A stretch of DNA of 64,000 nucleotides from Deltaproteobacteria bacterium. GTDB lineage: Bacteria; UBA10199; GCA-002796325; JACPFF01. Positions 35,322 to 51,646 of the stretch are shown here, piece by piece (within the stretch, counting starts at the first letter, position 1; the number at the start of each line of letters is the position of its first letter). Where the stretch lies: the NCBI GenBank assembly GCA_016183065.1, contig JACPFF010000026.1:7545-71544 (forward strand). Reading direction: 5' to 3'. Below the pieces are notes generated by a model. That model saw nothing but the letters and a program-made list of their open reading frames with translations. It was not told where the DNA came from and ran no database searches. Position numbers and translations under genes: made by a program.

Positions 35322-35951
35322 TCAGTTGTCGACCACGCCCTGCGCTGCGATGGCAAAGGCAGAGACAAAATTTCCGTGCGTGGCGGTACGATAATGGCAT
35401 TCCCATGGTCCATAATGGGCCCGCCGATGGGGGTCATCCACACGGATATCGGTCAATCGTAGATTCGGGGTGGGTGGGAGCGCCTTGAGGCAGGCTTCCT
35501 TGATACACCAGAGTACCTTGCGGCGTGACGGCACGATGCGGTCATGTGGATGCCATATTCCATGTTGCATAGAGTGGAGTCTGTCGCGGCATTCAATGTC
35601 ACAGCCGATACCAATACGACCGAGGTAACGCGCGTGCACATGCGCAATGACAGCAAAACACCATCCCGCTGCATGTGCCAGTGTGACGACAAATGGGCAT
35701 CCCCTGTTGCGACAGCGCAACTGCGGATCGAAACTATGTCGGTGTCGTCGATTCGTGACTGACGATAATGCGTAGAGCGTCTGTGCGATCCACCATCGGC
35801 CAAATAACCGTTCAGCACGACGATCGGGATGGCGCTGCGTTTGAATATGTGCCCATTCGATGTCGTCAAAACAGGATCGATATGCCTCTTCCGGCATATG
35901 CAGCAGGATGGGACCTACATACACCTGTTTAATGTGCAGCGGTGGTCGCAT
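35322..35951 (-). CDS. Sfp-type 4'-phosphopantetheinyl transferase
   Basis: The start may be 35951 or an upstream codon at 35990; the former overlaps the previous gene by 23 bases. GIGCDIE supplies the Mg-binding Asp and Glu, and VLWCIKEACLKAL is the (W/F)xxKEAxxKA signature. It transfers the phosphopantetheine arm from CoA to Ser of carrier proteins. It is the last gene of the operon, and the only carrier protein seen there is the ACP at 43276-43560, its obvious partner. The N-terminal half is divergent and rich in His, Arg and Cys. Confidence 0.85.
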   Translation of the reverse strand: MRPPLHIKQVYVGPILLHMPEEAYRSCFDDIEWAHIQTQRHPDRRAERLFGRWWIAQTLYALSSVTNRRHRHSFDPQLRCRNRGCPFVVTLAHAAGWCFAVIAHVHARYLGRIGIGCDIECRDRLHSMQHGIWHPHDRIVPSRRKVLWCIKEACLKALPPTPNLRLTDIRVDDPHRRAHYGPWECHYRTATHGNFVSAFAIAAQGVVDN

Positions 35952-37203
35952 GTGCAAGAAATACTCTGTTGTGTGTAAGGCGCAGCCCAAGATAGATTGG
36001 GATCATCATGACAATGGCCGCGTGCAGAAGAAATGAGGTGATCAGGAGGGGCATGGAGGCATGGTGTGCGGTGAGCTGTAAGAACCCGCGTGCCACGATC
36101 ATGGCTGCTGCAAAGATGGCGGCGACCACATACCCTTTCTGATCTGACTCAAGAAGATATCGACTGACATGCATACCACCCATAAAGGGAATCAAGGCTG
36201 CGTCAGTCCAGATCACTATGGTCAGCGCGTGCACGGCGTCCTCGAGATGTGGCGTACACAGAGAGAGAATCTGCTCCACATGCGTGAACACGCGGTATGC
36301 GAGGAAGACCGTCATGCCGATCCAGAGGAAAAGTGCTGGCGATATCGGTCGAATGTGCGACCAGTGAAACATCGCATGGTCGTGTTGGCGGCGTTGCGCG
36401 AGAACTTGACCGAGGGCAAGTGCGGGAATGAGGAAGAATGGTTTGAGTTGAAACCAACCGGCAAACACCCCAACGTAGGCGGTATCCCACTGACCGACGA
36501 TGCCATTGAGCCAATGACGGTCCAGTGCGACGACAGACCAACTGAGGATCAGGGGAATCGAAAATCGACTATAGAGATGCAGAGAGTGTCCCTGCAGTGT
36601 GCAACGCCACAACGCGCGGTGCCAGGGTTGTAGCAACAGAAACCAGACGATGGATTCCAGGACTGCCACGTATGCCATCGTGTGCGCCCATGTCGAGGTG
36701 TCGAGCAGGTCGTGCAGTGCGCACCATATGGCCATGCCGATCGTGATGCACAGAAACGCGAAATTCGCACGATAGATACGACGAAATGCCCCACGCGCAC
36801 GCAAAATACCAATACAGCCTGCTGAGGCAATGCTGAGTGCCGCCATGATGAACAGCGGTCGAGCGATCAGGGTCATTTCAAATGTCGTGACACCCCCTGG
36901 TTGATACAGAAAACCACCAGCATAGTACATCAGTGCCAGGCTCGCTTGCCAGGCAAAGAGTGCCACGATGTTGGTCTGTGACTGTCGGCCGATCAGATAA
37001 AAGATCGCCATTTCCGTTCCCTCGGCAATGGCGAACCCCAGGAGGAGATAGGGGAGGAGCAGTCCGTAGACAATGATGGCACGGTCCGAGACTTGGGCAA
37101 AGACCAGACACATGACGAGCGGTGAGGCATATGTGGCGGCAAATCCTTTTGTGCTATGCCATAATGTGCACAGCATCTCGTAATTGTGTTTCCACAGAGA
37201 CAT
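35929..37203 (-). CDS. Multi-helix MATE/flippase-like membrane protein
   Basis: About 12 membrane helices in 424 residues with a repeated half pattern, as in MATE or polysaccharide flippase proteins of the MOP superfamily. No signature is strong enough to fix the subfamily. A clear MATE protein is encoded at 48751-50121, so the operon has two possible exporters. It starts one base after the KAS III-like gene upstream. Likely exports or flips the product or an intermediate; inference only. Confidence 0.6.
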   Translation of the reverse strand: MSLWKHNYEMLCTLWHSTKGFAATYASPLVMCLVFAQVSDRAIIVYGLLLPYLLLGFAIAEGTEMAIFYLIGRQSQTNIVALFAWQASLALMYYAGGFLYQPGGVTTFEMTLIARPLFIMAALSIASAGCIGILRARGAFRRIYRANFAFLCITIGMAIWCALHDLLDTSTWAHTMAYVAVLESIVWFLLLQPWHRALWRCTLQGHSLHLYSRFSIPLILSWSVVALDRHWLNGIVGQWDTAYVGVFAGWFQLKPFFLIPALALGQVLAQRRQHDHAMFHWSHIRPISPALFLWIGMTVFLAYRVFTHVEQILSLCTPHLEDAVHALTIVIWTDAALIPFMGGMHVSRYLLESDQKGYVVAAIFAAAMIVARGFLQLTAHHASMPLLITSFLLHAAIVMMIPIYLGLRLTHNRVFLAHATTAAH

Positions 37204-37204
37204 A

Positions 37205-38143
37205 TTATTGTAGCCGGCGGAGTGTCAGACCAATGATGACCTCGCCGGGTTCGATGAATAGACACAGACATCGTGTGTTATTTGGCATATCGCTCTTGGC
37301 AAGCATCGCCAGGATTTCCAATCCATGGGCCATGCCACAGCAACCGTTGTGCCACGCCATACCGGTACGTACGTGCGAAAATTGTTCCAGCACGAGCGGA
37401 GCACACGCGGGATAAATGACCTGCGAGCATGTCGGTGGATGCTGGCGAAAAAAATGCGTCAGCTGTGTCATCGTGTCATCCAACATCATGTCCCATGCAT
37501 GATCAGCCCAGGCGAACGGGTGTGGATGATAATATGCGATACAATCTTCATACACATACGTCGGTCCTTCTGATGGAATATCTGTCGAGACAGATACCAC
37601 CCCCGCAGCATCCGAAAGCCATCCCAGCGGCGAGAAGGCGCGATGCGCTGGCGCAAGGACCCGTTCAGCCCCCACAATGAGGCTCGTCGCAGAGGCCGAT
37701 TGAGACTGGACCCAGTCAATGGTTTCCTGGAATGCGAGGCCCCATGTGGCGCCTCCCTGGTATTCTACCGTAAATGTCTCCGATGCCCGAATACCGGTGA
37801 TATGTTGCAACCATGCCGCAGGGCATATGTGCAAATCTTCCGGGAAGGTCTGATGGCAGTAGACAAATTGTTGGCAGGAAGCGTGTGGATAGGCCTTCAA
37901 TACTGCGGCGGCCAGTTCGACCTGACTCAGGCGAGGGCTTTGCACAAATGCGTGAGACCGTCCCTCCCACGCCATCGGAGGGACATGGTGGCGAGGTAAC
38001 AGTCCATGGGTACACAAATGCAAATAGTGTAACGAATCAAAGGGATCTTCGCTATGACCTTCCAGATATTCTGCCCAGGATCTGAGGGATAATACCTCAC
38101 CAACCGGTAGTACGGATGGTGTATGGATATAGACATCATGCAT
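37205..38143 (-). CDS. KAS III-like protein without catalytic Cys (pseudoenzyme)
   Basis: Thiolase-fold features of the KAS III (FabH) family are recognisable: SATSLIVGAERVLAP, then WLSDAAGVVSVS, and a C-terminal HNGCCGMAHGLEILAML in the place of the GNT-S-A loop. At the nucleophile position, where FabH has C-S-G, the sequence reads EYQGGATWGLAF, so Gly replaces Cys near residue 130. It is the third and most divergent KAS III-like protein of the operon and overlaps the decarboxylase gene by eight bases. A structural or chain-length partner role, like the cysteine-less subunits of heterodimeric KAS III-type enzymes, is likely. Confidence 0.6.
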   Translation of the reverse strand: MHDVYIHTPSVLPVGEVLSLRSWAEYLEGHSEDPFDSLHYLHLCTHGLLPRHHVPPMAWEGRSHAFVQSPRLSQVELAAAVLKAYPHASCQQFVYCHQTFPEDLHICPAAWLQHITGIRASETFTVEYQGGATWGLAFQETIDWVQSQSASATSLIVGAERVLAPAHRAFSPLGWLSDAAGVVSVSTDIPSEGPTYVYEDCIAYYHPHPFAWADHAWDMMLDDTMTQLTHFFRQHPPTCSQVIYPACAPLVLEQFSHVRTGMAWHNGCCGMAHGLEILAMLAKSDMPNNTRCLCLFIEPGEVIIGLTLRRLQ

Positions 38144-39447: not shown

Positions 39448-40386
39448 CTACTGCGCTTGTACGAGGAGACCGCCCCAACTTGCTCCCATGCCATAGGTCA
39501 GTGCGAGGGCGTAGGTCGATGTCGGTGGATGCTGCGCAACGAATTGCATCAACCCCAGCACGCAATCCGTTCCAAAAAGATGCCCCAAGGTCTCCATCTC
39601 CCGCTGCAGTAGGATCTGGCCGTGAAATTGCAAAAGCTCTCGGATACGCTGCCATGTCACCGGATTGCTGATATGGGGAATCACATGTGCAACCTGCTCA
39701 ATGGTGATCCCATGCCGGACTAAGAGCGCATGAACGAGCGAACGGAGGGTGAAAAAATATCGCCAGCTGAGTTCATCGCCAGCTCCACTCATGTCATATC
39801 GCGATGCATCGGTGATCACGTGCGTTCCCACATACGCGATTTCCGCGGGGGCATGGCTCAGAATCACCGCTGACGCCGCATCGCCCTGGATCACGCCGTT
39901 GCCCAATGTGCGGTGCGTCGTAAAATCCACAACGTCGACCGTGGCCACCAACACGTGAGAATATGGCCGTGTCGTCAACCAGTGCGCAGCCTGTCGCATG
40001 GCAGCAATAGTGCCTGAACACTGATGTCCGCCGAGATGCAGGTATGGTCCCGAAACGCCAATGGGCTGCAATATGGATCGAACAAGAGAGCGTCCAGCGG
40101 GGAAGTGCGTCATCGGCAATGTGCAACAAAATACGGTGCCATCAATTATTGTCGCCGGCATCGATGCCCGTTCGAGCGCACCCGTAATGGCCTCACGCAG
40201 CAATGACATCTTTGCATCGGCCGACCATGCTGCCAGACATGCGACGGTGCGATCATGACCTGCTGTTTCTTGCGTTGCAGAGATGCCCTCTATACGCATG
40301 ATCGCACGACGCAACCGTCGCACCGTCCCCGTGACGCTATAGGCACCATGTACATAAATCCGACGTTGACGCTTCTGCTGATTCAT
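39448..40386 (-). CDS. KAS III-like condensing enzyme with Cys and His
   Basis: The start at 40386 overlaps the previous stop (ATGA). The thiolase fold keeps the nucleophile in GGHQCSGTIAAM (about Cys123) and the second catalytic residue in HVIPHISNPVTW (about His238). The usual Asn of the GNTS motif appears to be replaced (FGTDCVLGLM). The C-terminus LTYGMGASWGGLLV is typical. It is the most complete of three KAS III-like proteins here and probably does the condensation or acyl transfer from ACP or CoA. The pairing resembles PqsC with PqsB, where one subunit holds the active site. Confidence 0.75.
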   Translation of the reverse strand: MNQQKRQRRIYVHGAYSVTGTVRRLRRAIMRIEGISATQETAGHDRTVACLAAWSADAKMSLLREAITGALERASMPATIIDGTVFCCTLPMTHFPAGRSLVRSILQPIGVSGPYLHLGGHQCSGTIAAMRQAAHWLTTRPYSHVLVATVDVVDFTTHRTLGNGVIQGDAASAVILSHAPAEIAYVGTHVITDASRYDMSGAGDELSWRYFFTLRSLVHALLVRHGITIEQVAHVIPHISNPVTWQRIRELLQFHGQILLQREMETLGHLFGTDCVLGLMQFVAQHPPTSTYALALTYGMGASWGGLLVQAQ

Positions 40387-41360
40387 GGATCCACGGGATC
40401 TGCTGAGAGAAATGGCGAGGGAACCTGCTGGACCGGAACAAGGGAGCCATGCGTATAGAGCATCTCGAGCGGCGCGGGATGGCTGATAAAATACAACGGG
40501 CTTCGATAGTGCGCACTGCCGGCATTCGGCAGTGCGATCAGATCGCCTGGGTGAAGTGCAGGAGCGGGTATATCGACCGCCAACAGATCTTGCGGCGTAC
40601 ACAGCGGTCCACAGAACGTGGTTGGACGCACTGTCGCCTCTGCTGCACTGTACGGGAAGAGTATCGGGTACTTCTTGCGCAACGCATTTCCCCGTTGTCC
40701 GGCATCCCAGAGCACGTTTGTTCCACCACTCATGATTGCATACTGACGTCCGTGGACCTGCTTCACCGTGCGTACCACCAGCCACAAGGTACAGGCCTGA
40801 TGCAGCAGTGCTTCTCCATGGAACACCATGCAGCGAATGTCATGATGTTCGCAGAACTGTTGTATGCAATGTGACAGAGCATCATGGTCCTGGATTGATG
40901 CCCCCCGCGCATCAACAAGCCATTGTTTAGGGCGTTGTGCGATAGACCGCAGGGGTGCGCATTGAATGAGCTTCGGCAGGACATGATGGGGAATACAGGC
41001 GATCGAGTGAGAGGCTGGACAGGATGCCAGTGCCAGCCGTGTCCAGTCTTCTGGGGATTCGATCCACAGAGCATGCTCATTCAGACAGCACACGTCAGAT
41101 GGCGGAATATTCGTCAACTGAAGATAGGAGATCCACGCTGTTGTCGGAATGACGACATGGCAGCACAGCTGTTCGTGAATCCGTCGCACAACGGCAAGGG
41201 TTGGCTCTGTTTGGAGGTCGTACACATGCCGTATCCATGGGGGATATTGCTGCCCCACTGTGCGGCAGTTTGCCTCCAATTGTGGGATGTCAACAACGAC
41301 AAACGCCTCCTGGCCGCGTCGTACCCACTGCGTCAGTTGCTCTAGGTAGGGAAACTGCAT
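40383..41360 (-). CDS. Fold-III PLP decarboxylase-like protein lacking the PLP lysine
   Basis: The barrel start is clear (AFVVVDIPQLEANCRTV), but where the family has YSLKAN the sequence is YDLQTEPT, so Gln50 replaces the Schiff-base Lys. The Gly-rich loop is reduced (IMSGGTNVLWD) and the PLP Tyr motif GAY is lost (NAGSAHY). In contrast, CGPLCTPQDLLAV (Cys254) retains the motif that enters the partner's active site in ODC/DapDC dimers, although the Asp/Glu after Cys is Thr. It is therefore the mirror image of the 38136-39419 protein. The gene overlaps the next by four bases. Confidence 0.75.
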   Translation of the reverse strand: MQFPYLEQLTQWVRRGQEAFVVVDIPQLEANCRTVGQQYPPWIRHVYDLQTEPTLAVVRRIHEQLCCHVVIPTTAWISYLQLTNIPPSDVCCLNEHALWIESPEDWTRLALASCPASHSIACIPHHVLPKLIQCAPLRSIAQRPKQWLVDARGASIQDHDALSHCIQQFCEHHDIRCMVFHGEALLHQACTLWLVVRTVKQVHGRQYAIMSGGTNVLWDAGQRGNALRKKYPILFPYSAAEATVRPTTFCGPLCTPQDLLAVDIPAPALHPGDLIALPNAGSAHYRSPLYFISHPAPLEMLYTHGSLVPVQQVPSPFLSADPVDP

Positions 41361-41388: not shown

Positions 41389-42759
41389 TCACCCTTGTGC
41401 TGGACAAAGGGGTGAGGAGAGCACGTCCGAAGTGAAAAATGTATGTATACGTTGTGCGAGCATCTGCTGCAGTATGAGGCAACGGTCGCGAGTCGAGGCG
41501 AACACGGCGTACATAAGACGCGATCTGGCGGGGATCTCCCGTAGTCGACTGACCGTGGCCCAATTCATGATCATGAGCCCTTCATCGGTGCGATAGGGGA
41601 GTGCTTTGACGACACGGTCATGAAACTCGGAGAACGTTGGACGATGCTGCAATGTAAACATCACCTGGTTTGATAAGAGACATAGACCGTGATGTCGCGC
41701 CTGATCCAGGGCCCATTGAAAGGACGAGTTGTTGAGTCGTGCGTTAATTTCCAGCAATGGATACACGGTTCCATTCTGAGCCACTAGCCCATCAACCCCA
41801 ACAAGGCCCGTATAGCGGGCCGAGGCGAGTGCCGCTCCGATGACGTCGGCCGCATGACGGCACGTTGCCTCAATGTGCGCATCGGGCATCGCTGGCGTAA
41901 AATGACCGAGATGTTTACATCCCTCGACCAGGGCCTCTTTGTAGAGATAATAACTGACACGACCGGACGGGTGGAGAAAGAACTGATAGTTGAGGTCGTG
42001 GCGCTTTTCAATAAAGGTTTCAACAATCATTGTGCATGAATTGATGCTTCGGCGCTGGAGATATTCCAGATAATGCTCGAGTTCGGCTGTGGACGCGCAC
42101 ATGCGAATGCCGCGTCCACTGACTCCCATTGGATCTTTGAGCAACACCTTTCCATGTGTCTCTTGAAGCAACCGTGTGGCAATGTCATACAGCGCTGCCG
42201 GCGAATTGGCGATCAGCGAAGGGACGGTATGCGGCAATCCCGTCAGGCGGGAGGAAAAACACTTATCATTGACGCGATGGGTCACGTCAGAGGATGCACT
42301 GATATTTGGGATGCCCGTGTCTTGCACCAGTTGATCGGCTGCGATCGTGGCGCCATAAAAGAAGAAACGGAGACGATTGCGCAGCGGATGGGCAGCAAGG
42401 GCTGCAAGAGTCGGCGGATCACGGCAGATCAGCTCGCAGATGTCCAACGTTGGATCGTCGTGTTGCACGATCAGCATGCGACAACGCGCCAATCCGTACT
42501 CCTGCAGATATGCAAGGAACTGTGAATCCGGCGCGCGACGCAAAATCACGATATCCTGTGGGCGTGCCAACAGGAGAACCAATTCCTCCATTGCGGCAAT
42601 CACCTGGCGCTCCGTTCGCGGCGCGACGGAGGGCCCCATAATGTTCAGTGGATTTTTTCGTGGCCAGTGACGTTCCACTTCACATTCGATGGCCCAAATA
42701 ACGGGATGGGGACCGATCCAGTGGAGCAGTGGAAGTGCTATCGGAGAAAAGTGGAGCAT
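41389..42759 (-). CDS. ATP-grasp family ligase
   Basis: The start at 42759 has GGAAAGGAAAGCG directly upstream and overlaps the preceding gene by 80 bases. Pre-ATP-grasp region about residues 1-160; then NDKCFSSRL, GKVLLKDPMGVSGRGIRM (ATP lid with Lys and Gly-rich loop), VETFIEKRHDLNYQFFL, and GLVGVDGLVAQNGTVYPLLEINARLNNSSF with the Mg-binding Glu and Asn. The family joins a carboxylate, activated as acyl-phosphate, to an amine or thiol. It is the only ligase in the operon, so it likely links an amino acid or amine to an acyl group. Substrates cannot be predicted. Confidence 0.82.
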   Translation of the reverse strand: MLHFSPIALPLLHWIGPHPVIWAIECEVERHWPRKNPLNIMGPSVAPRTERQVIAAMEELVLLLARPQDIVILRRAPDSQFLAYLQEYGLARCRMLIVQHDDPTLDICELICRDPPTLAALAAHPLRNRLRFFFYGATIAADQLVQDTGIPNISASSDVTHRVNDKCFSSRLTGLPHTVPSLIANSPAALYDIATRLLQETHGKVLLKDPMGVSGRGIRMCASTAELEHYLEYLQRRSINSCTMIVETFIEKRHDLNYQFFLHPSGRVSYYLYKEALVEGCKHLGHFTPAMPDAHIEATCRHAADVIGAALASARYTGLVGVDGLVAQNGTVYPLLEINARLNNSSFQWALDQARHHGLCLLSNQVMFTLQHRPTFSEFHDRVVKALPYRTDEGLMIMNWATVSRLREIPARSRLMYAVFASTRDRCLILQQMLAQRIHTFFTSDVLSSPLCPAQG

Positions 42760-43279
42760 CGCTTTCCTTTCCGGCATCTTGTTCGAATGCGGTCCATGCG
42801 CGCCGCAGATAGCGGCGTAAGACAAAGGCATATTTACTGATATCAACACCATACAATCGGACGTGATATTGTTGATATGACGTGTCCGCGGCGATCCGGA
42901 ACACTACGGAGGGGATGATCTCGCAGGTCTCAGGGTTCAGTCGCCGGAGGTTGAGCCAACTCATAAGCTCACCGGCCGGACCATCGAGATGGAGGAGAAC
43001 CCAGAGCGGAACCGTTTCTCGAAGGACCAGTCGCATTTCTCCATGTATCTGCAGCATCGCGCCGGAAAGGCCATAATGTACATGTGGTGCGCGGATGTAC
43101 ACGAACTGGTCAGGCCGTGCAGTAGTGGAAAAGACCTCGGGACGAAGCACTCCGGCATTACCGCAGTGACGGTAGAACATCGCCGCGATATGCTGTCCCC
43201 CAGTGACAGTCAGTGGTGCCCATCGCCGTGACATGCGTATGAACGCATATGGTGCCAGGTGTTGTGTGTGGCGCCTCAT
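42680..43279 (-). CDS. Unknown protein of the biosynthetic operon
   Basis: This 199-residue protein overlaps the ACP gene by four bases (ATGA). It is rich in Arg, His, Tyr and Trp. Secondary structure looks like beta strands (FVYIRAPHVHYGLSGAML, then MRLVLRETVPLWVLLHL) followed by helices near ISKYAFVLRRYLRRAWTAF. I recognise no family. Its place between the ACP and the ATP-grasp ligase suggests a tailoring or carrier-interacting role, which is only inference. Confidence 0.5.
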   Translation of the reverse strand: MRRHTQHLAPYAFIRMSRRWAPLTVTGGQHIAAMFYRHCGNAGVLRPEVFSTTARPDQFVYIRAPHVHYGLSGAMLQIHGEMRLVLRETVPLWVLLHLDGPAGELMSWLNLRRLNPETCEIIPSVVFRIAADTSYQQYHVRLYGVDISKYAFVLRRYLRRAWTAFEQDAGKESDAPLFSDSTSTAPLDRSPSRYLGHRM

Positions 43280-43560
43280 GCCGCACCAGCCTCTTGTTGT
43301 TGCGGTACTGTTAAGAGCTTTTGCACAAGCAGAGATACCAAGGCGCTGAGGCGCTCGAAGAGTTCTGGTGAGAGTTCGTCATCATCAAAAACAACGTGTA
43401 ACTGGTTTTCAATGTCAACGATCAATTCCATTACCCCGAGTGAGTCGAGCCCGATCTCAAAGAGGTTCGTCTCCAGCGAAAGCGAATGGTCTGTTGCACT
43501 GAGTTTGACGATCCGCGTGATCATGGGGTTCAGAATCGTCATGATCTGTTGCTCATTCAT
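43276..43560 (-). CDS. Acyl carrier protein
   Basis: 94 residues with helix I, the phosphopantetheine site IGLDSLGVMELI (Ser in DSL) and acidic helix II/III (DIENQLHVVFDDDEL). The C-terminus is extended by about 15 residues (VPQQQEAGAA). It carries acyl or aminoacyl groups as thioesters. Partners in the same operon: phosphopantetheinyl transferase, KAS III-like proteins and acyl-CoA dehydrogenase-like proteins. The gene overlaps both neighbours. Confidence 0.92.
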   Translation of the reverse strand: MNEQQIMTILNPMITRIVKLSATDHSLSLETNLFEIGLDSLGVMELIVDIENQLHVVFDDDELSPELFERLSALVSLLVQKLLTVPQQQEAGAA

Positions 43561-44575
43561 GGTGCGTGCCTTTCTCGTGTCCGTAGTGCATCGGACGTGT
43601 CGGGGTGAAAATCATTGTGCAGAGAGTCGTTCCGAGGCCCGTTGCATGCAGTGCCACCGGCTTCTTTGCGCCTCGTCGCAAAACTTCCATCAGGCATCCA
43701 ATGGCGATATGTGCAGATGTCAGTGCGTATTCCCGAACGTGGTCGTCAATAATAGTCCGCTTTGTCCGGGGATACGATGTCAGTCGGTCCATGGCCCGGT
43801 TCAATGGGGGATTGTTTGTCACAATGAATTCCATATCGTCGGCGGTGAAGCCCGTCTGAGTGAAGGCCCGTTCATATTCGTGGAGTGACCATTGCACACC
43901 CTTTACGGCCAGTGTGCGCAGCGTTTCCAATGGTTCGCGATACCGTCGGCCGCCCTGGGGAATGCAGCGTGAGGCCACGTAGTGAATGGGGCCACCCTCG
44001 CGACTCAGGAGGACGGCGCTCCCAGCATCTCCAAAGATCAGATGGTTGACCACCCGTGGTTCACCACAATGCGTTGCCACGCAGTCTCCACCAGCCACGA
44101 TGACCCGATGGATGTCGGGACGGGCGGACATCACATACCACGCGGCTTCAATCGCGGCGATGCTGGACGCACAATTACGCTGAGTGACATGTGCGACGTA
44201 GCGCAGATCCATCATGCCTGTCAGTTCAGCAAGGCGCGATGGCATATTGATCGTAGTATCCTCGGGCCATGGAATGGCATCATAATAGAGCAAGGCATCG
44301 ACGGCCGCGGGTGGCAGCGCATTGTTGGCAAGCAATTGCTCAACGGCCATCACGGCCAGATCCAGTGGGCGCTCGCTGCTCGCGATAGGGACAGAGGCGT
44401 ACCCTGCGGCGCGATACGATGCGGGATCGAGCGAGGGGGTTGAGACATGATCATAGTTGGTGTCGAGACGCGTTCCCGCTGCAATGCGGGCCCGTTCGAC
44501 GGCAATGACCTGTTCAACAGTGTAGCGTTTTGGTGCGGGGACGTACACGCAATCCTGGATGCCGATAGCGGCCAT
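43553..44575 (-). CDS. KAS III-like protein with Cys but without catalytic His and Asn
   Basis: The start at 44575 has GAAAGGAGGAACG upstream. The nucleophile position is kept in TQRNCASSIAAI (about Cys135), and DAGSAVLLS is typical of the family. Where FabH has the H-x-x-N His the sequence reads IVTNNPPLNR, and the GNTS loop reads YALTSAHIAIG, so His and Asn are lost. It may act as an acyl-transfer or partner subunit to the Cys/His protein at 39448-40386. FabH-related enzymes lacking part of the triad are known to use other acyl-transfer chemistry. Confidence 0.7.
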   Translation of the reverse strand: MAAIGIQDCVYVPAPKRYTVEQVIAVERARIAAGTRLDTNYDHVSTPSLDPASYRAAGYASVPIASSERPLDLAVMAVEQLLANNALPPAAVDALLYYDAIPWPEDTTINMPSRLAELTGMMDLRYVAHVTQRNCASSIAAIEAAWYVMSARPDIHRVIVAGGDCVATHCGEPRVVNHLIFGDAGSAVLLSREGGPIHYVASRCIPQGGRRYREPLETLRTLAVKGVQWSLHEYERAFTQTGFTADDMEFIVTNNPPLNRAMDRLTSYPRTKRTIIDDHVREYALTSAHIAIGCLMEVLRRGAKKPVALHATGLGTTLCTMIFTPTRPMHYGHEKGTHHE

Positions 44576-44606: not shown

Positions 44607-45758
44607 TCAGATACGGAGATGCGTGCAGATATGTTCGCGCTGCATCTCTCCTGTCCCTTCGAGAATATCAAAGACCTTGGCCGCCCGGTACAATCGTTCG
44701 AACAAGTGTCCTTCGACCAATGCCTCTGCGCCAATGATCTCGATGCCGCGAACGGCCATCCGCATGGCGAATTGTGCCGTGTATGCCTTTGCAATCGAGA
44801 CGGCGTATTGGGCCGGGAGTCCGGTATCGTGGGCATGAGCGGCCCGTTGACAGAGCATCCGTCCTATGTGGATGTCACGTTCCACCTCCGGAAGTGTCTT
44901 GCCGTATTCGCTGCGCAATGTGTCGGCAATGGCACGCGCGATTCCCACGCTGATGGCCGAGACTTCGATGCGAAAAAAGCTCCACGCGGCCGTCGCACCA
45001 TGGAATCCAGCCAGATAGGCCTTTCTGTCGGGGCCGCAGAGGAGTTGCGATTTGGGTACAAAGCACTCATCCAGGACGATTTCGGCAATGCCCGCCGCGC
45101 CAAGGCCCATCATTTTCTCGACGGTTCCAATCGAAAATCCTGGGGCATCACGGTCGACAATGAAGGCACGCAATCCGAATTGTTTCCGGGATGCATCAAT
45201 CGTCGCAAAGACAATCGTGTAATCCGCGCGGGCCCCATTGGTGATGAAGCACTTTGTCCCATTGAGGATGTATCCGCCGTCGACCTTGCGGGCGCGGGTC
45301 CGCAATGCTGTTGCATCGGATCCGGCATGGCTTTCGGTGATGGCAAATGCGCCCCATACATTGCGCTGTGTGCTGAACTTCCGAAAATAGCGCTCACGCT
45401 GCGCTTCGGATCCGAATGCGCAGAGCACCGGAAACGTCAGACTTGGGCCCGGCAACCCGCAGGTCAAACCGGGATCACCCCACGCGAGCTCCTCGGTCAG
45501 CAGAATACTGATCTGCGAGGAGCATTCAATCCGCCGGTCGCTGCCCGGAATCGGTACGCCCCCACCATACCTGCAGGGAACGTAGGCAGCGCTCAGAATG
45601 TCCGCCCAAGGATGTTCCAGGACTCGCGGGGGGATCTCTCCTGTGCGGTCTGCCACTGCTGCCGCAGGCCGGAGGTGCTCTCGCGCAAAACAGCGGGCTT
45701 CTTCACGCAACGCCGCGTGCTGTGCAGGTGTCAGTGTGGGTATTGGTGTCATTTGCAA
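44607..45758 (-). CDS. Acyl-CoA dehydrogenase-family flavoenzyme, active-site Glu present
   Basis: The three ACAD domains are in order: helical N-terminus, beta domain with WGAFAITESHAGSDATAL (FAD/substrate segment) and KCFITNGARADYTI, and C-terminal helices ending VFDILEGTGEMQREHI. The Glu in LEGT corresponds to the catalytic base of the MCAD class. In carrier-protein pathways such enzymes oxidise acyl- or aminoacyl-ACP, for example prolyl-carrier proteins to pyrrole. Here the ACP substrate is inferred. The 383-residue length is normal. The start overlaps the preceding ACAD-like gene by 56 bases; a start at 45752 is also possible. Confidence 0.88.
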   Translation of the reverse strand: MQMTPIPTLTPAQHAALREEARCFAREHLRPAAAVADRTGEIPPRVLEHPWADILSAAYVPCRYGGGVPIPGSDRRIECSSQISILLTEELAWGDPGLTCGLPGPSLTFPVLCAFGSEAQRERYFRKFSTQRNVWGAFAITESHAGSDATALRTRARKVDGGYILNGTKCFITNGARADYTIVFATIDASRKQFGLRAFIVDRDAPGFSIGTVEKMMGLGAAGIAEIVLDECFVPKSQLLCGPDRKAYLAGFHGATAAWSFFRIEVSAISVGIARAIADTLRSEYGKTLPEVERDIHIGRMLCQRAAHAHDTGLPAQYAVSIAKAYTAQFAMRMAVRGIEIIGAEALVEGHLFERLYRAAKVFDILEGTGEMQREHICTHLRI

Positions 45759-46686
45759 TGATGGCTCCGAGTTCTCGCAACATCGTTTTCAGCACCTGGG
45801 CATCACGCATCCATTTTTCGACAGGATGATCCTCGAGATAGCCATGACCACCCAAGACCTGTACTGCACCTTCAACAATGTCATCGAGCACAGTACAGAG
45901 CAGACATTGTGATTGCCATACCGCACCCGGTGTCTGCGGATGGTGCAACGCATGATCAAAACACGCTGTTGCCCGTTCATACCCAATGGCCATATTGGCG
46001 AGTTTCTGTGAGACGGCCTGCCACCGGACAATGGCGCGTCCGAATGTCTGACGTTCATGGGCATAGGCATGTGCGTATTGAATCGTTGCACGCAGGAGAC
46101 CGAATGTCACACATTGGTACAACAGACTGATTTCGTCGAGGAAGCTTGCATAGTCGGATGTGGAGATATTTCCCAGCATCACACGCACCGGTGCGGATTG
46201 TGGCGCGAACCATGAAATGCCGCGAAATCCCATATACTGGCGAGTGGCGGCCATGGTCGTACCTATCAAGAGGAGTTCGTGCCCACTGGCACTCGACCGA
46301 ATCATATAGCTATCGGCTACCGGTACATTCATCGCCATCACAAATGCGCACGGCTCATAGGGGAAAATCGGGGCCGTGACGAGCGGATGCGCTGCCCTCG
46401 ACTGTAAGGCGCTGTGGATGAGTCCAGCAAACAGACGGAGGGCGATGGCGGCGTCCCGCTGCCCGACGCACCCGATGATCTGTGCAAGGGCCGCTGCATC
46501 ACAATATGGGTTGTGATAGAATCCCCCCGAGGCGATGTCGTGCAGGCCCAGTTCACTGGCCCGCGCGGCAATTGCTGACCACACGGCTGGATCTCGCTCC
46601 ATGCGCCGTGACATGGGCGCCACGCATGTCGCGGCAAAGTCTTCAACCGGTGGCAACAACGCATTGGTCATTTCATTTGTGCACAT
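45703..46686 (-). CDS. Shortened acyl-CoA dehydrogenase-like protein without catalytic Glu
   Basis: At 327 residues it is about 55 shorter than the family. The C-terminal helices are clear (ERQTFGRAIVRWQAVSQKLA, then VQVLGGHGYLEDHPVEKWMR), but the segment after them reads VLKTMLRELGAII instead of the IYEGT that carries the catalytic base. The central beta domain is reduced and lacks the usual ITEPxxGSD segment. It is probably a non-catalytic partner of the 44607-45758 protein, as in heteromeric ACADs where one subunit holds the active site. The gene begins 12 bases after the previous stop. Confidence 0.75.
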   Translation of the reverse strand: MCTNEMTNALLPPVEDFAATCVAPMSRRMERDPAVWSAIAARASELGLHDIASGGFYHNPYCDAAALAQIIGCVGQRDAAIALRLFAGLIHSALQSRAAHPLVTAPIFPYEPCAFVMAMNVPVADSYMIRSSASGHELLLIGTTMAATRQYMGFRGISWFAPQSAPVRVMLGNISTSDYASFLDEISLLYQCVTFGLLRATIQYAHAYAHERQTFGRAIVRWQAVSQKLANMAIGYERATACFDHALHHPQTPGAVWQSQCLLCTVLDDIVEGAVQVLGGHGYLEDHPVEKWMRDAQVLKTMLRELGAIIANDTNTHTDTCTARGVA

Positions 46687-46698: not shown

Positions 46699-47700
46699 TT
46701 ATTGGTGATATCGCAGACGCAAATCCGCCAATCCGGTCACAGCGCGTACTTTGAATGGGGCCGCAGGGTTCGTGGCCACGTCAACGTGGACATCTGACAG
46801 GCCACTTTTGATGGTTGGGGCCACGACGGCCCCTTCGGGGAATTCAAGCGTGGAATCTGTGGCACCCGCACGAATGTCGACCTCTCCGGACGACGGCATC
46901 TGTATCCAGCGGAGAAACAATTCTCCCAGCCCTGTGCGGACCTCGACAGTTGACGAGCGGATCTCTCCCCAAAGGGTTCCCACGCCAACTTTTACTGCAA
47001 GTGGGCCTGCCAGGTTGGTGAGATGGAGTGTCCCTTTGCGCACTTCGGCAGTGATCGCAAGGCCCGAGGGGACCATGAGACCGACATCCACCTCGCAATC
47101 ACCAGGATCCAGCACGGCCTTCTCGGTTTTGACAACGATGCTATCTGCTTCCGTCGTCACTTCGGTTTGGCAGCTTGGACTGCTCTTGCGTGGGTAGGTG
47201 CGCAGCTCGATGGTGTCTGTCGCAATACCGGCGACATGTACCACGCCCACATCATGCCGCACAGTGAGGTGATCGACCTGCACTGCCGGAATCACCCGTG
47301 TGATATCGGGTGCCGTACTGGTGTCAAAGACAAAAGCGGCATTTCGACCGGTTGTTTCTGCGACCTCTGTGGACATGTCGCGCTGTGTGCCGACGAATTG
47401 CGTAACGCTTGCGCGAAAAGATGCAACCGCTGCACGCACATTGTGCTCGACGGTGTGCGCCACACTGGTGGCAGTATTGCGTGCCGTCGCCCATATGGTT
47501 TGTTCATCCCAGCGGGAAGCCAATGCTCTGGTCCCGCCAAGCCATTGCATGGCCGTCTGTACCTCGTCGACCGCTTCAACCACATGGTCAACAAAAGATG
47601 CGGCGGTTTGTTGCACGCCAGATGTCACGTCAGCGATGAATCGCTCGATGTAACATGCGGGCACATTTGTACTGCTACTGCAGGTGCGTAGGTCTCCCAT
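46699..47700 (-). CDS. Beta-solenoid DUF4097-like protein with helical N-terminal extension
   Basis: An AAAGGAGGTGTCTC site precedes the ATG. Residues about 15-120 are amphipathic helices with no signal peptide. The remaining 200 residues are successive short strands of the adhesin-like DUF4097 type (VDHLTVRHDVGVVHVAGI, then EVRKGTLHLTNLAGPLAVKV and AVTGLADLRLRYHQ). The last half resembles the protein of 47784-48470. Such domains occur in membrane-linked, envelope-stress-associated proteins. Its role in this operon is unknown. Confidence 0.6.
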   Translation of the reverse strand: MGDLRTCSSSTNVPACYIERFIADVTSGVQQTAASFVDHVVEAVDEVQTAMQWLGGTRALASRWDEQTIWATARNTATSVAHTVEHNVRAAVASFRASVTQFVGTQRDMSTEVAETTGRNAAFVFDTSTAPDITRVIPAVQVDHLTVRHDVGVVHVAGIATDTIELRTYPRKSSPSCQTEVTTEADSIVVKTEKAVLDPGDCEVDVGLMVPSGLAITAEVRKGTLHLTNLAGPLAVKVGVGTLWGEIRSSTVEVRTGLGELFLRWIQMPSSGEVDIRAGATDSTLEFPEGAVVAPTIKSGLSDVHVDVATNPAAPFKVRAVTGLADLRLRYHQ

Positions 47701-47783
47701 GAGACACCTCCTTTGGTGTTTGGTCAGGTAAGCAAGTGAATATCGCCATCAGTCAGCAATACGAACGATGCCGCGGAATGGTG

Positions 47784-48470
47784 TTATGATGACTGCGGAT
47801 ACTGCAGTGTGACGCTGCCAAAACCCACCTTGGCCTGCAGCAAAAACCCCGAGGTGCTACTGGTTTGTAATGCATTGATAATGCGACCAAAACCTTGCAC
47901 GAGGTCCGGTCGGATGGTCGTGCCGCGGGGAAAGGTCAATGTTACGACCCCAGCGCCCGCCTTGATGGCGAGAATTCCGCGCTGTGGCACGTGGCCCCAG
48001 ACAAGGTCGACGTGGCCCGCGCCCAGCTTGATGTGGGTGTCCTCCGAATCGATGGTGCCTCGGACATGGCCCGCACCCATGTTAATATGCAATGGCCCCC
48101 GGAGATGCGCGAGCTGCACCCTGCTTGCTCCACTGTCGGCACGCACCGCCAGTGTGCGCGGCATCGTGACCACAAGATCCACCTCACAGCTCAGGCCGGA
48201 AAAGAGGGCATGTGCGGTTTTCACGAGCACGGTGTCTCCTTCCGTGCGCACTTTTGTCAGACAGCTGAGTCCGCCTTTGACCTTCTCTGCCCGCACGTGA
48301 ATCGTCTCTGTTTCCATTCCTTCGATCCGCACCGTCCCTTCCTCGTGCTTGATCCATACGGTTGTCACGCCTGCCTGCGGAACGGTGTGATCCAGCAACA
48401 CCTCACCGGCACGCGCAAGACTGCTCCACGACAGAGCGCTGATCATGATTGTGACCATCAAGTAGAGCAT
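47784..48470 (-). CDS. Exported DUF4097-like beta-repeat protein
   Basis: The start at 48470 follows GAGGAGGTATAT. A signal peptide ends near SLARAGE. The mature protein is about 205 residues of repeated short strands (TIHVRAEKVKGG, LHINMGAGHVRGTI, AIKAGAGVVTLTF, KVGFGSVTLQY), the same repeat as in the neighbouring 46699-47700 protein. The two are probably paralogues. It may be periplasmic or surface-located and act in product export, storage or immunity; unproven. Two such genes in a metabolite operon is unusual. Confidence 0.65.
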   Translation of the reverse strand: MLYLMVTIMISALSWSSLARAGEVLLDHTVPQAGVTTVWIKHEEGTVRIEGMETETIHVRAEKVKGGLSCLTKVRTEGDTVLVKTAHALFSGLSCEVDLVVTMPRTLAVRADSGASRVQLAHLRGPLHINMGAGHVRGTIDSEDTHIKLGAGHVDLVWGHVPQRGILAIKAGAGVVTLTFPRGTTIRPDLVQGFGRIINALQTSSTSGFLLQAKVGFGSVTLQYPQSS

Positions 48471-48502
48471 ATATACCTCCTCAGTATGCGTACGGCTGCG
48501 TC

Positions 48503-48754
48503 CTAAAACGGAACCTCGTTCATCCACTGCATGGCACAGTGCCACCATCCATTATCGGCCACCACAGGCCAGCCGTCAGTGACCGCCTTCATTGCCTGCG
48601 CAACATGACCAATGAGCAGTGCCAATGCAACCACGAAAGTCAGGCCAGGGACAAGGAAGATCACAAGGTTGATCAGGAGCACGATAAGGATCAACAACAT
48701 CACGAATAAGCTGATGAATGCCAGGGTTGTCATCAGGACCTCCATGACGGTCAT
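48503..48754 (-). CDS. Small membrane protein with two hydrophobic segments
   Basis: Start chosen at 48754, where ATG overlaps the MATE stop (ATGA). The 83-residue protein has a very long hydrophobic stretch (LAFISLFVMLLILIVLL, then FLVPGLTFVVALALLIG), that is two helices, and a short polar tail with two Trp. No family is recognised. Its place between the MATE exporter and the exported beta-repeat protein suggests a membrane function linked to export. Confidence 0.55.
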   Translation of the reverse strand: MTVMEVLMTTLAFISLFVMLLILIVLLINLVIFLVPGLTFVVALALLIGHVAQAMKAVTDGWPVVADNGWWHCAMQWMNEVPF

Positions 48755-50121
48755 TGTACGGCGCATTGTGCGACAGCCACGTGCGGTCGTCCAACACGTT
48801 GTGATTGCATGAGCCGGCGGTAGGATCGGATGAACCAGATGGCCTCCACTGCATGCAAGACATGTGACCATGGTAAGATATACCGCAACGCCATTGGCCC
48901 CATCACGGGCACGATGATCAGATAGGGAAGTAATCGGCCAAAGACCACGACGATCACCAAGGTGATGAGATTGGGATAGGTCTTCCCCGTCCCTTCAAAG
49001 GCTCCCTGACCAATAAATCCGAGGGCAAGAAACGGAAATCCGACGACCTCAGACTGAAAAACGAGAACGGCAAATTCACGGGCCCCGGTGGCATCGGGAG
49101 CCAGCAGCGATAAGGCCGGCGCGATTCCACAATAGCAAATGATGACCAGACCTATATATGCGAGCACGATAACACGAAATGTGGCGGACACACCATGCCA
49201 CGCGCGGGCTATTTGTCCGGCCCCAAGGTGCTGACTGACAAAAATGCTTATGCCAACACTGATGGCAATGGCGGGGAACAGCGCCATGGTGCGGACTCGT
49301 TCAAGAAGACCAAGGGCAGAGAGCGTTTCTGTGCCATAGTGGGAAAAAAATCCGACGGTCATTCCGGCCTCGATGGCCCCCAGAAGATTGCCTGCCATTA
49401 CCGGCACGGCCATCAACAAAAATTGCCGCAGCCATCTCTGAGAAACGGCCATCCATCGCGCAGGACGCCCGCGGATGGCCAAGCAACGCATATAGACCGC
49501 GGTGCACACTACCGAAATCCACATGGCGACAATCGTCGAAAGTCCGATGCCACTGATGGAGAGATGGCCCGACCACAATAACGCGCCTTGGAGCGCGACT
49601 TTGGTCCCTATGAACGTCAGGGATCCAACATAGGACGGTGAAGTATGGCCAGTCCCACCGCACAGGGCCGCTTGATAGGCCCGAACGCACCAGGGAACGA
49701 TGCTGGCCACAAAGCACAAGGCATAGAGGGTAAACCCCTTCGAGACTACGGGAGACATGGTGAACACTCGAGGCGCAATCGGGAGCAGGGCAAATCCGCA
49801 GACGGTCACGAGGAGGCCCACTCCCACGAGAAGCCCCCATCCCGTATCGCGCACCTCTGCTAATTGCTGCGGGTCACGCGTTCCCACCGCCCGGCCAATC
49901 AGTACGATCAATGGGATACTGAATCCTTCCAGCACCGCATACACGACAAAGAGGCAGGGCGACAAATAGGTGGCTACCGCAATATAGTCGGCTGTGAGTC
50001 TTCCCAAAAAATAGATATCGACCGAGAGCCAGAGGCTATTGATCACCATGCTGGCGAAAATTGGTGCTGAAAGTCGTGCAATGGCACGACCGATCGGTTG
50101 CGTTGTGATATCGTCTCTCAT
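48751..50121 (-). CDS. MATE-family multidrug/metabolite exporter
   Basis: The start at 50121 overlaps the hydrolase stop (ATGA). The protein has 12 membrane helices in two halves, starting PIGRAIARLSAPIFASMVI with the family's P-x-x-S/A motif, and GQGAFEGTGKTYPNL, typical of MATE proteins of the DinF/NorM clan. It uses an ion gradient to export organic molecules. In this context it is the prime candidate exporter of the operon's product. A second multi-helix MOP-like protein is at 35929-37203. Confidence 0.88.
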   Translation of the reverse strand: MRDDITTQPIGRAIARLSAPIFASMVINSLWLSVDIYFLGRLTADYIAVATYLSPCLFVVYAVLEGFSIPLIVLIGRAVGTRDPQQLAEVRDTGWGLLVGVGLLVTVCGFALLPIAPRVFTMSPVVSKGFTLYALCFVASIVPWCVRAYQAALCGGTGHTSPSYVGSLTFIGTKVALQGALLWSGHLSISGIGLSTIVAMWISVVCTAVYMRCLAIRGRPARWMAVSQRWLRQFLLMAVPVMAGNLLGAIEAGMTVGFFSHYGTETLSALGLLERVRTMALFPAIAISVGISIFVSQHLGAGQIARAWHGVSATFRVIVLAYIGLVIICYCGIAPALSLLAPDATGAREFAVLVFQSEVVGFPFLALGFIGQGAFEGTGKTYPNLITLVIVVVFGRLLPYLIIVPVMGPMALRYILPWSHVLHAVEAIWFIRSYRRLMQSQRVGRPHVAVAQCAVQ

Positions 50122-51053
50122 GGCAGTTGCGTAATGAAATGATCGATAGCGGTCAGAAAATTTTCGGGTTCCTCTTGGAATGGATTGTGTCCCGAGTGGG
50201 AAAATATGATGCGTTGGGCATGGTGTATCGCCTTCCAATAGGTCTCCAGACACGCGCGATCGACAATGCGATCATGCGTGCCACCGATGACCAACGTCGG
50301 ACACTCGACACGAAGCAGTTGCGGGGTAATATCCCTCGTCATGACGCTGTGATATTCGCAGGCTGCGAACAAGGTGTCATCGGCATCCTGCAGACTGTTC
50401 GCATCATATTCCCCGGTGCTAAGCGTGCTGCGGATATTGGCCTCCATGGCCGTGCGAGTGGCATCGTGGTCCCGATAGTACAAACCCGCGATGCGAGCAT
50501 AATGGAACAACTGTGTAAATCGCGCGAATCCCAATGGGAGTTGAGTAATCCGTGTCAGGTTGTGCAGGGCCTTGGCATTGTCAGAGAAAAAACCCCGGAG
50601 ATGGCAGAGGAGATTATACAGCATCTCCGGAAACGAGGCGGGCCCGCACACGTTGATCAACGCCCGTGTCCGTCGGGGCATCTGACTGGCAAAGAGCCCG
50701 GCGAGCATGCCGCCCCACGAATGTCCCATGACAATCATCGGTGGAAGGGCAAGCTGCTCATGCATGTGGCACAGGCCCACAAGGAATGCATCCGGATCAT
50801 GATCCTCGCACGGGATGTCTCGTGGAGAATGTCCACATCCCGGTTGATCCACCCATAACACCGTGTAGCGGGCTTCCAAGAGGCGACCACAACAGGCAGA
50901 AAAGTATGCACAGTTGTCACCGGGTCCCCCGTGGAGAAATAGGACGACGGGTTGATCCGTTGCGTGGCGGACCAGTCGGTAGGCGAATGGTGGACTGGTG
51001 CGTGTAAACTCCCACTGAAATCTGTCTTGGGCCCCCTCGATCATGCAAGTCAT
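50118..51053 (-). CDS. Alpha/beta hydrolase of the proline iminopeptidase family
   Basis: The start at 51053 has GAGGAA upstream. Oxyanion motif HGGPGDN, nucleophile elbow GHSWGG, Asp in GGTHDRIV and His in SHSGHNPFQEEP form a full triad. The HGGPG-type motif and cap domain match the prolyl iminopeptidase (S33) family. It may hydrolyse an amide or ester in the pathway, release the ACP-bound product, or remove a protecting group. It is the second gene of the operon, 15 bases after the NusG-like gene. Confidence 0.88.
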   Translation of the reverse strand: MTCMIEGAQDRFQWEFTRTSPPFAYRLVRHATDQPVVLFLHGGPGDNCAYFSACCGRLLEARYTVLWVDQPGCGHSPRDIPCEDHDPDAFLVGLCHMHEQLALPPMIVMGHSWGGMLAGLFASQMPRRTRALINVCGPASFPEMLYNLLCHLRGFFSDNAKALHNLTRITQLPLGFARFTQLFHYARIAGLYYRDHDATRTAMEANIRSTLSTGEYDANSLQDADDTLFAACEYHSVMTRDITPQLLRVECPTLVIGGTHDRIVDRACLETYWKAIHHAQRIIFSHSGHNPFQEEPENFLTAIDHFITQLP

Positions 51054-51067
51054 TGTCGGCAGTTTCC

Positions 51068-51646
51068 TCAGTGGTCGTGCGTGATCCTGGGGCGGGTAAT
51101 GCATGCGAGATCCAACCGAATGCGCTTATTATCTAACGAAACACAAATTGTTGCGCGGTGTTTTCGTTTGGAGAATTTGAGAATCATCCCTTCTTTTCCC
51201 TGTAAGGGGCCTGAGATAATATGTACGCGATCGCCCTGTAACTCACCATGGGAGAGCCCCGCTGTCCCCGTATTGCCGGTTAACGCCTGCAGCAGATCCA
51301 TTTCATGCGATTGCACGGGAATTAGTGACTCTCCGAGGCGGACAGGGCCATACATACTGTCAGGCCTGTTGTCGATCACGTGCCGCAGCACAGTTGGAGC
51401 ACATTGAATAAATGCGTATCCCGGATAGAGCGGTCGTCGGCGTAACTGAAATGCTCCCCGATGGTATTCCAGCAACAGACGCATGGGTTGGAATATGCGG
51501 ATGATTTTTTGCCCGAGACGTTGTCGCAATATCTCCAAGCCCTGTGTTGTGGCCCGTTGTTGAAACGCCAATGCCCACCATGCCTGTTGTGACTGCGTGT
51601 CTATTATGCCCTCTCTTTCATGTGCCGTCATATGTACGACATCCAT
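51068..51646 (-). CDS. Specialised NusG paralogue (LoaP/RfaH-type antiterminator)
   Basis: The start at 51646 is preferred, with CTAAGG upstream and the NGN domain beginning at once (QQAWWALAFQQRATTQGLEI, then PLYPGYAFIQC). A KOW domain follows (GDRVHIISGPLQGKEGMILKF). The 192-residue length is that of NusG. Genes for such paralogues at the head of long biosynthetic operons (LoaP, RfaH, UpxY classes) let RNA polymerase read through internal terminators and pauses. It is the first gene after the sigma-54 promoter at 51749-51765, so it probably antiterminates its own 16-kb operon. Confidence 0.85.
   Translation of the reverse strand: MDVVHMTAHEREGIIDTQSQQAWWALAFQQRATTQGLEILRQRLGQKIIRIFQPMRLLLEYHRGAFQLRRRPLYPGYAFIQCAPTVLRHVIDNRPDSMYGPVRLGESLIPVQSHEMDLLQALTGNTGTAGLSHGELQGDRVHIISGPLQGKEGMILKFSKRKHRATICVSLDNKRIRLDLACITRPRITHDH

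Follow-up and report, generated by a model that had tools for sequence, protein, structure and literature searches.

A carrier-protein operon without non-ribosomal peptide synthetase, encoding a putative two-chain PLP decarboxylase, in an uncultured deltaproteobacterial lineage

Introduction

In the biosynthesis of AFC-BC11, Asp is loaded on the carrier protein AfcK by AfcQ, decarboxylated by AfcP, acylated by AfcA and transferred by AfcL, and AfcE has been proposed to desaturate beta-alanine to dehydro-beta-alanine (PMC12186527). In the case of the bolagladins, deletion of the acyl-CoA dehydrogenase (ACAD) BolQ leads to a beta-alanine analogue, while no product is formed upon deletion of BolN (PMC7756342). 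The enamidonins and autucedines are structurally related to the bolagladins. AFC-BC11 is sensitive to light. Here we analyse an operon found in a stretch of 64,000 nucleotides, hereafter the window (contig JACPFF010000026.1, positions 7,545 to 71,544, assembly GCA_016183065.1), from the 1.97-Mb draft genome of a Deltaproteobacteria bacterium. As a whole, this operon is best explained, and in our judgement quite probably so, as a pathway free of non-ribosomal peptide synthetases (NRPS), working on a carrier protein and including an obligate heterodimeric decarboxylase dependent on pyridoxal 5'-phosphate (PLP).

Results

Gene content and conservation of the operon

Eighteen open reading frames (ORFs), all on the minus strand, occupy positions 35322-51646 of the window (Table 1). 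With starts set by homology or by a ribosome-binding site, adjacent genes overlap or lie 1-83 bases apart, the widest gap (about 83 bases) being that between the two toastrack-like genes. A preliminary description of this DNA had reported 17 to 18 genes in one direction, most of them overlapping or separated by a few bases, and its gene list is borne out by the Pfam and NCBIfam profiles with which families were assigned: a NusG-type antiterminator, a hydrolase, a MatE protein, two ACADs, an acyl carrier protein (ACP), an ATP-grasp ligase, a pair of PLP proteins (here PLPn and PLPc), two of the three proteins resembling ketoacyl-ACP synthase III (KAS III; here KS1, KS2 and KS3) and a phosphopantetheinyl transferase, with no NRPS module or large polyketide synthase (PKS).

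Conservation was evaluated in a phylum comparison set of 46 genomes, all belonging to one class, with those of the same order designated G001-G005. Fourteen operon genes were found over two contigs of G005 (labelled 'uncultured delta proteobacterium' at NCBI and, by its isolate name, from a lake dataset), in identical order and orientation and with 33-65% protein identity. One locus (L018) carries the toastrack-like pair, ACAD beta, ACAD alpha, KS1, ACP, a 199-residue protein, the ATP-grasp ligase and PLPc, its contig stopping just upstream of the conserved block; the other (L017) carries KS2, PLPn, KS3, the second exporter and the phosphopantetheinyl transferase. Since 14 genes keep their order in a second genome of the order, we consider the operon conserved and not a chance grouping, and the co-occurrence elsewhere of the ACP, both PLP proteins and the 199-residue protein, for which the preliminary description had proposed to search, is found among them. 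Gene overlaps, conserved order and an exact sigma-54 site (see below) support a single putative transcription unit.

No relative of the NusG-like antiterminator was found in the five genomes of the order, G005 included, nor of the MATE exporter in G001-G005. KS1 and the ATP-grasp ligase had no relatives in the other 44 genomes of the class, and a scan of genome contigs with KS1 retrieved the G005 locus alone. Searches of plasmid records gave one weak hit for KS1, in a Burkholderia cenocepacia locus that also provided the best match for ACAD alpha, and none for the 199-residue protein or KS3.

Two putative complementary halves of a decarboxylase

Among solved structures, BtrK, which acts as glutamyl-ACP decarboxylase in butirosin biosynthesis, was the best match to both PLP proteins, covering PLPn in full length (E 1e-42, vs. 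2e-32 for the best diaminopimelate decarboxylase) and only the C-terminal part of PLPc (E 3e-18). In decarboxylases of the alanine racemase (AR) fold, the active site is formed by the barrel of one subunit and the C-domain Cys of the other (PMC7857480). An alignment of 13 full-length homologues contained 44 columns at least 90% invariant, 29 of them in the barrel and eight in the cysteine-loop region (BtrK K309 to D370, catalytic C366 included); each full-length homologue retains 26-29 of the barrel and 7-8 of the loop residues. PLPn, in both lineages (window and G005), retains 27 of the 29 barrel residues and none of the eight loop residues. On the contrary, PLPc retains six of the eight loop residues in both lineages, along with three barrel residues in the window (3 or 5 of 29 across the two). 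This complementary retention was significant in each lineage (Fisher p 4e-5 and 2e-4), and the phosphate-site Tyr (BtrK Y395) is likewise present on PLPn and gone from PLPc.

Because barrel and loop residues are retained on opposite proteins, each gene would encode one half of a single composite site. By alignment, the residues for one AR-fold site are present across PLPn and PLPc, on separate proteins and not on one chain as in BtrK, and the two proteins appear to be complementary halves of a single decarboxylase that need to pair for one working site. In such an obligate heterodimer, PLPn would contribute the barrel with the PLP lysine, PLPc would reach over the interface with its catalytic cysteine loop, and each pair would contain a single active site. 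Gene decay is argued against by the intact reading frames of both proteins in two families at 36-48% identity.

A full match to PLPc was obtained in only two of 385 genomes (that of the window and G005), 12 other hits covering the C-terminal part only, in frames 420-646 codons long. A search of 72,556 plasmid records gave no match that reached 80% coverage of PLPc. The open-access literature yielded no description of an AR-fold PLP decarboxylase whose half-sites are complementary and encoded by separate genes. The preliminary description had recognised the PLP pair and the 199-residue protein, both of which are present, but missed the apparent division of the enzyme as well as the predicted fold of the small protein, reported below.

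Division of motifs between acyl-CoA dehydrogenase chains

In the alpha2beta2 ACADs of the ChsE4-ChsE5 type, the catalytic Glu occurs on one subunit only and the flavin adenine dinucleotide (FAD) site lies between two different subunits (PMC8399759). The operon shows the same arrangement of motifs: ACAD alpha carries the flavin loop together with the catalytic Glu (ILEGTGEMQ), the C-terminal RxxFG site and QxxGGxG both being missing from it, whereas the FAD-adenosine motifs RQTFG and QVLGGHG are found solely on ACAD beta, consistent with FAD bound at a heterodimer interface. With the catalytic Glu on one chain only, the pair has the motif pattern of a heteromeric alpha2beta2 ACAD. It differs from ChsE4-ChsE5 in that the operon encodes a third chain, resembling the middle domain only, and in its substrate, presumably ACP-bound.

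The third chain is the 199-residue protein. ACADs were the top entries for its model with both Foldseek and VIA-align, with a ChsE4-ChsE5 chain ranking first (Z 10.1, root-mean-square deviation 4.0, 134 residues aligned). By sequence, hhalign detected no relation to ACAD beta chains, nor to small hypothetical proteins encoded in related clusters. We consider with moderate confidence that this protein is ACAD middle-domain-like, linked to ACADs by fold comparison only. The dehydrogenase would be an alpha/beta heteromer, perhaps with the 199-residue protein as third chain.

ACAD beta is related to the beta subunit of B. cenocepacia (hhalign 96.7%). In related clusters the motifs are divided similarly, and the beta chain is far shorter (about 200-225 residues) or, in B. 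cenocepacia, has 372 residues; the beta motifs are eroded in Streptomyces decoyicus, and in Rahnella two alpha-type chains and no beta were found.

Carrier protein, ligase and KAS III-like proteins

The best NCBIfam hit of the ACP was the cispentacin ACP AmcB (39.7 bits, below the cut-off of 80). The ATP-grasp ligase is 30-33% identical to the ATP-grasp genes beside BtrK-type decarboxylases in S. decoyicus and genome G371. KS1 and KS2 align with the cysteine-bearing KAS proteins of related clusters (hhalign 98.0% and 99.1%, respectively). KS3 was recognised only by profile comparison, with the Cys-less KAS of B. cenocepacia (hhalign 90.7%), and the same approach detected no relation to the shorter KAS-like proteins of related clusters. 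Several of these clusters each hold a KAS-like protein that, like KS3, lost its Cys, and KS3 may be the cysteine-less partner of a cysteine-bearing KAS. The KAS-like proteins had been noticed in the preliminary description, but not the loss of one cysteine or the sigma-54 promoter upstream of the operon.

Table 1. Features of the operon and of its upstream region (positions in the window; operon genes in order of transcription)
Feature	Position	Strand	Evidence and remarks
Sigma-54-dependent response regulator	52400..53809	-	Pfam Response_reg, Sigma54_activat, HTH_8; ATG start at 53809
Sigma-54 (-24/-12) promoter TGGCACGGTGCTTGCT	51750..51765	-	Exact consensus; ~104 bases upstream of first operon gene
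NusG-family specialised antiterminator, LoaP-like	51068..51646	-	Likely start 51646 or 51631; Pfam NusG 23.0 bits (cut-off 22.2)
Alpha/beta hydrolase, proline-iminopeptidase-like	50118..51053	-	Start 51053 or 51104; Pfam Abhydrolase_1 E 2e-26; NCBIfam pro_imino_pep_2 E 9e-26, below cut-off
MATE-family exporter	48751..50121	-	Pfam MatE E 2e-26
Small hydrophobic membrane protein, ~76 aa	48503..48733	-	Translation; start has ribosome-binding site; no Pfam family
Secreted toastrack-like protein 1	47784..48470	-	Signal peptide by eye; L018 counterpart 38%; weak DUF4097 toastrack match E 0.12
Toastrack-like protein 2, paralogue of protein 1	46699..47700	-	L018 counterpart 33%; alignment
ACAD beta subunit	45703..46686	-	RQTFG and QVLGGHG present, catalytic Glu absent; Pfam Acyl-CoA_dh_1 E 9e-18
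ACAD alpha subunit	44607..45752	-	Pfam ACAD N, M and C domains; 65% identical to L018 counterpart
KS1, KAS III-like with active-site Cys (VTQRNC)	43553..44575	-	56% identical to L018 counterpart
ACP with DSL serine (GLDSLG)	43276..43560	-	Pfam PP-binding E 2e-9
199-residue protein, predicted fold ACAD middle domain only	42680..43279	-	AF2 model, pLDDT 58, core 70-85
ATP-grasp ligase with pre-ATP-grasp domain, presumed amino-acid:ACP ligase	41389..42759	-	Pfam PreAtp-grasp E 1e-8, CPSase_L_D2 E 1e-4
PLPc, decarboxylase half with C-terminal GPLCTPQD loop; barrel degenerate, shortened, without PLP lysine	40383..41360	-	C-terminal part matches BtrK
KS2, KAS III-like with Cys (GHQCSG), His (IPHISN) and conserved Asp (LGHLFGTD)	39448..40386	-	Alignment
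PLPn, decarboxylase half with complete PLP barrel and phosphate-site Tyr, without GPLCTP loop	38136..39428	-	BtrK best PDB match
KS3, KAS III-like without active-site Cys (EYQGGATW)	37205..38143	-	33% identical to L017 counterpart
Second membrane exporter/flippase-like protein	35929..37203	-	No Pfam family; L017 counterpart 37% identical
4'-phosphopantetheinyl transferase	35322..35951	-	Pfam ACPS E 3e-7; L017 counterpart 37% identical

Comparison with described systems

The operon resembles the afc cluster of the Burkholderia cepacia complex in having a sole carrier protein, a BtrK-type decarboxylase (AfcP), KAS III-like proteins (AfcL/O/R), acyl-ACP dehydrogenases, membrane proteins for export and no condensation domains. 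It differs in that afc has a VinN-type adenylating enzyme for Asp, a fatty acyl-AMP ligase, a citrate synthase and an O-methyltransferase, none of which is present here, and in that AfcP is described as one protein (PMC12186527) whereas the decarboxylase of the operon is in two chains. Similarly, the bol cluster of Burkholderia gladioli combines ACP-bound Asp, the BtrK-like BolN, the KAS III homologues BolM and BolP and the ACAD BolQ, giving dehydro-beta-alanine, but uses the adenylating BolO and feeds a four-module NRPS (PMC7756342); the operon has an ATP-grasp ligase and no NRPS. With BtrI, BtrJ and BtrK of the butirosin pathway it shares an ACP and a PLP decarboxylase that would act on an aminoacyl-ACP, although BtrK is one polypeptide, and its ATP-grasp ligase is a possible counterpart of BtrJ.

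Following the afc/bol steps through the operon, no AMP-binding domain occurs in the 18 ORFs and the ATP-grasp ligase stands in its place; the BtrK-type decarboxylase is there, though in two chains; KS1, KS2 and KS3 align with the KAS III-like proteins of related clusters; an ACAD with catalytic Glu is present, its N-acyl-beta-alanyl substrate being presumed; and neither a fatty acyl-AMP ligase nor an NRPS is encoded for completion of a lipopeptide. The afc and bol clusters were not found in the collections searched, and the comparison made here is with their published descriptions. By analogy, the operon core would work like the afc/bol pathway, but we do not file it as a member of that family.

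Related uncharacterised clusters

BtrK-like decarboxylase, ACAD and KAS III-like genes were found grouped on plasmids of Tritonibacter, Gemmobacter, Rahnella, Agrobacterium vitis, Rhizobium and S. decoyicus, as well as in B. cenocepacia NZ_CP091013.1 (L033) and in genome G371, together with carrier proteins where annotated. Like the operon, the B. cenocepacia cluster and its relatives on the plasmids have cysteine-bearing and cysteine-less KAS III-like proteins and, in most cases, a separate ACAD beta chain; they differ in having the decarboxylase full-length or fused to an ACAD, and several have P450 or NRPS genes. Adenylating enzymes replace the ATP-grasp ligase in B. cenocepacia, Rahnella, A. 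vitis, Rhizobium, Tritonibacter and Gemmobacter, S. decoyicus being an exception: there, and in G371, a full-length decarboxylase is immediately preceded by an ATP-grasp gene from the family of the operon's ligase. In Tritonibacter (L025:13248-15683) and Gemmobacter (L026:13233-15707) the BtrK-type decarboxylase is naturally fused to an ACAD and annotated only as such, which suggests that the two enzymes may act in consecutive steps.

Some further observations concern these loci. The B. cenocepacia cluster (L033:8986-20241) is unannotated, adjoins a LuxR-type regulator and is near the published afc description without being identical to it, no citrate synthase having been seen. The BtrK-type decarboxylases at L035:10590-11873 and L036:10581-13004 are annotated as diaminopimelate decarboxylase, a likely misannotation. 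The Rahnella cluster (L034:18154-22184) includes a DUF2807 protein, a phosphopantetheinyl transferase, a sigma-54 regulator and an ATP-binding protein, in parallel with the surroundings of the operon in the window; a relation of the toastrack-like pair to this DUF2807 protein was considered and rejected, finding no sequence support.

Control of expression and neighbouring genes

Scanning of the window with the sigma-54 consensus TGGCAC-N5-TTGCW retrieved three exact sites, against 0.09 expected. The first precedes the operon and is adjoined by the response-regulator gene, the combination of site and nearby NtrC-class activator expected of a sigma-54-dependent operon; activation of the operon by this regulator is probable. 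The second (53835-53850, minus strand) lies 26 bases upstream of the regulator's own ATG and suggests that the regulator itself may be expressed from a sigma-54 promoter. The third (37339-37354, minus strand) falls within KS3, perhaps as an internal promoter for the last genes or by chance. Beyond the response regulator, a hybrid histidine kinase is encoded at 54965-57610.

The NusG-family protein scored 93.1 bits (E 2e-26) against the NCBIfam LoaP cut-off of 125 and is accordingly termed LoaP-like only. Transcription would begin at the sigma-54 promoter, and this product of the first gene would carry the polymerase through 16 kb. No unusual structure was predicted in the leader RNA ahead of the NusG-like gene (z 0.43), and scans for sigma-70 promoters and terminators gave fewer than the chance count. 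As to export, a relation of the second exporter-like protein to the MATE family was not supported (hhalign 6.9%).

Outside the operon, the window encodes another ATP-grasp protein, whose C-terminal domain is that of an L-amino acid ligase (59019-60389, plus strand), and, downstream, a multihaem cytochrome c and the cytochrome-maturation genes CcmE/CcmF/CcmH (27515-29260, minus strand; 31676-34476, plus strand).

Discussion

From the gene set, the conserved order, the complementary residue losses and the promoter match, all read from the sequence, we infer the reactions, the subunit pairing and the product class as follows. The phosphopantetheinyl transferase would prime the ACP, on which the ATP-grasp ligase would load a dicarboxylic amino acid (Asp or Glu) via its side-chain carboxylate; the BtrK-type decarboxylase would then take off the alpha-carboxylate, giving beta-alanyl- or gamma-aminobutyryl (GABA)-ACP. 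The KAS III-like proteins would transfer an acyl chain onto the amine or away from it, and the heteromeric acyl-ACP dehydrogenase would desaturate the N-acyl-aminoacyl thioester to an enamide, the product being finally released and exported. This logic is supported by the experiments on AfcQ, AfcK and AfcP (PMC12186527) and on BolN and BolQ (PMC7756342). The product is probably a fatty-acylated, dehydrogenated amino acid built on the small carrier protein, and the earlier idea of an acyl-amino-acid or oxidised-amine product on an ACP holds up in this inferred form. The operon itself is confirmed, and its earlier interpretation is supported in part: no described cluster with this exact gene set was found in the open-access literature, as had been stated, but the core logic is already published for AFC-BC11 (PMC12186527) and the bolagladins (PMC7756342).

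The balance also tips towards a common property of three enzymes of the pathway, namely that the split decarboxylase, the acyl-ACP dehydrogenase of two to three chains and a KAS III pair with a cysteine-less member may all be obligate heteromers of complementary defective subunits.

Some findings weigh against the scheme. The operon has neither a fatty acyl-AMP ligase nor an adenylating enzyme, so that the amino acid, like the origin of the acyl group, can only be guessed; the scheme has no role for the pair of secreted toastrack-like proteins; the catalytic residue set of KS1 is unusual; and the single-chain AF2 model of PLPc was poor (pLDDT 42) and was left out of the fold search.

Among the alternatives, the most serious, although we hold it to be the doubtful one of the two, is a butirosin-like route in which the ATP-grasp ligase loads Glu, GABA-ACP forms and ATP-grasp adds residues to the amine, leading to a gamma-amino acid derivative instead of dehydro-beta-alanine. 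The replacement of an adenylating enzyme by an ATP-grasp ligase and the structural match to BtrK would suit this route; indeed, BtrK works on a Glu-loaded carrier protein (PMC7857480) and the butirosin pathway joins GABA-ACP with a side chain of Glu (PMC6133997). The nearest gene neighbourhoods of the operon are, however, of the afc/bol kind. The butirosin pathway is not known to have an ACAD and KAS III set.

A role of PLPc as a pseudoenzyme or regulator, stabilising or activating PLPn in the style of a prozyme or antizyme inhibitor, is unlikely; PLPn homodimers would in that case have an altered active site of their own. Activator paralogues devoid of catalytic activity are known for the trypanosome S-adenosylmethionine decarboxylase (PMC5201418), and PLPn does retain the whole PLP site; yet its catalytic Cys loop is wholly gone (0 of 8) in both lineages and exactly that loop is retained by PLPc, in which a mere regulator would have no need to keep GPLCTPQD. 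Equally improbable is a true condensing pathway, in which KAS III enzymes would build a short aminopolyketide by adding malonyl units to an aminoacyl-ACP, as do the type II PKS-like KS pairs of cispentacin, where AmcF-AmcG is a heterodimer of KS and cyclisation factor (PMC10698177). While the three KAS-like proteins and the AmcB match of the ACP point that way, the match is below cut-off, Pfam and NCBIfam identify among the operon genes neither a malonyl transferase nor a ketoreductase or dehydratase, and KS2 has a Cys/His/Asp-like set as in the acyltransferase AfcL (PMC12186527). Ordinary lysine or polyamine metabolism, the PLP proteins being a diaminopimelate or ornithine decarboxylase with these neighbours by chance, is highly implausible and was rejected on scores and neighbourhood, being largely refuted by the conserved operon: LysA models do match PLPn, but at 178.9 bits under the NCBIfam lysA cut-off of 297.9 and less well than BtrK in structure, and full-length PLP homologues elsewhere are surrounded by the same ACP, ACAD and KAS gene set.

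If the reading of an NRPS-free carrier-protein pathway with a heterodimeric decarboxylase is correct, the logic of the AFC-BC11 type would reach an uncultured lineage in a minimal form driven by an ATP-grasp ligase. The division of motifs between ACAD alpha and beta, which recurs in related clusters, suggests a hypothesis on whether a second dehydrogenase acts in AFC-BC11, a question left open in that work (PMC12186527). AR-fold PLP decarboxylases are homodimers with two identical sites, each built from both subunits, and the PLPn/PLPc pair would be a clean and testable case of a homodimer that has become an obligate heterodimer.

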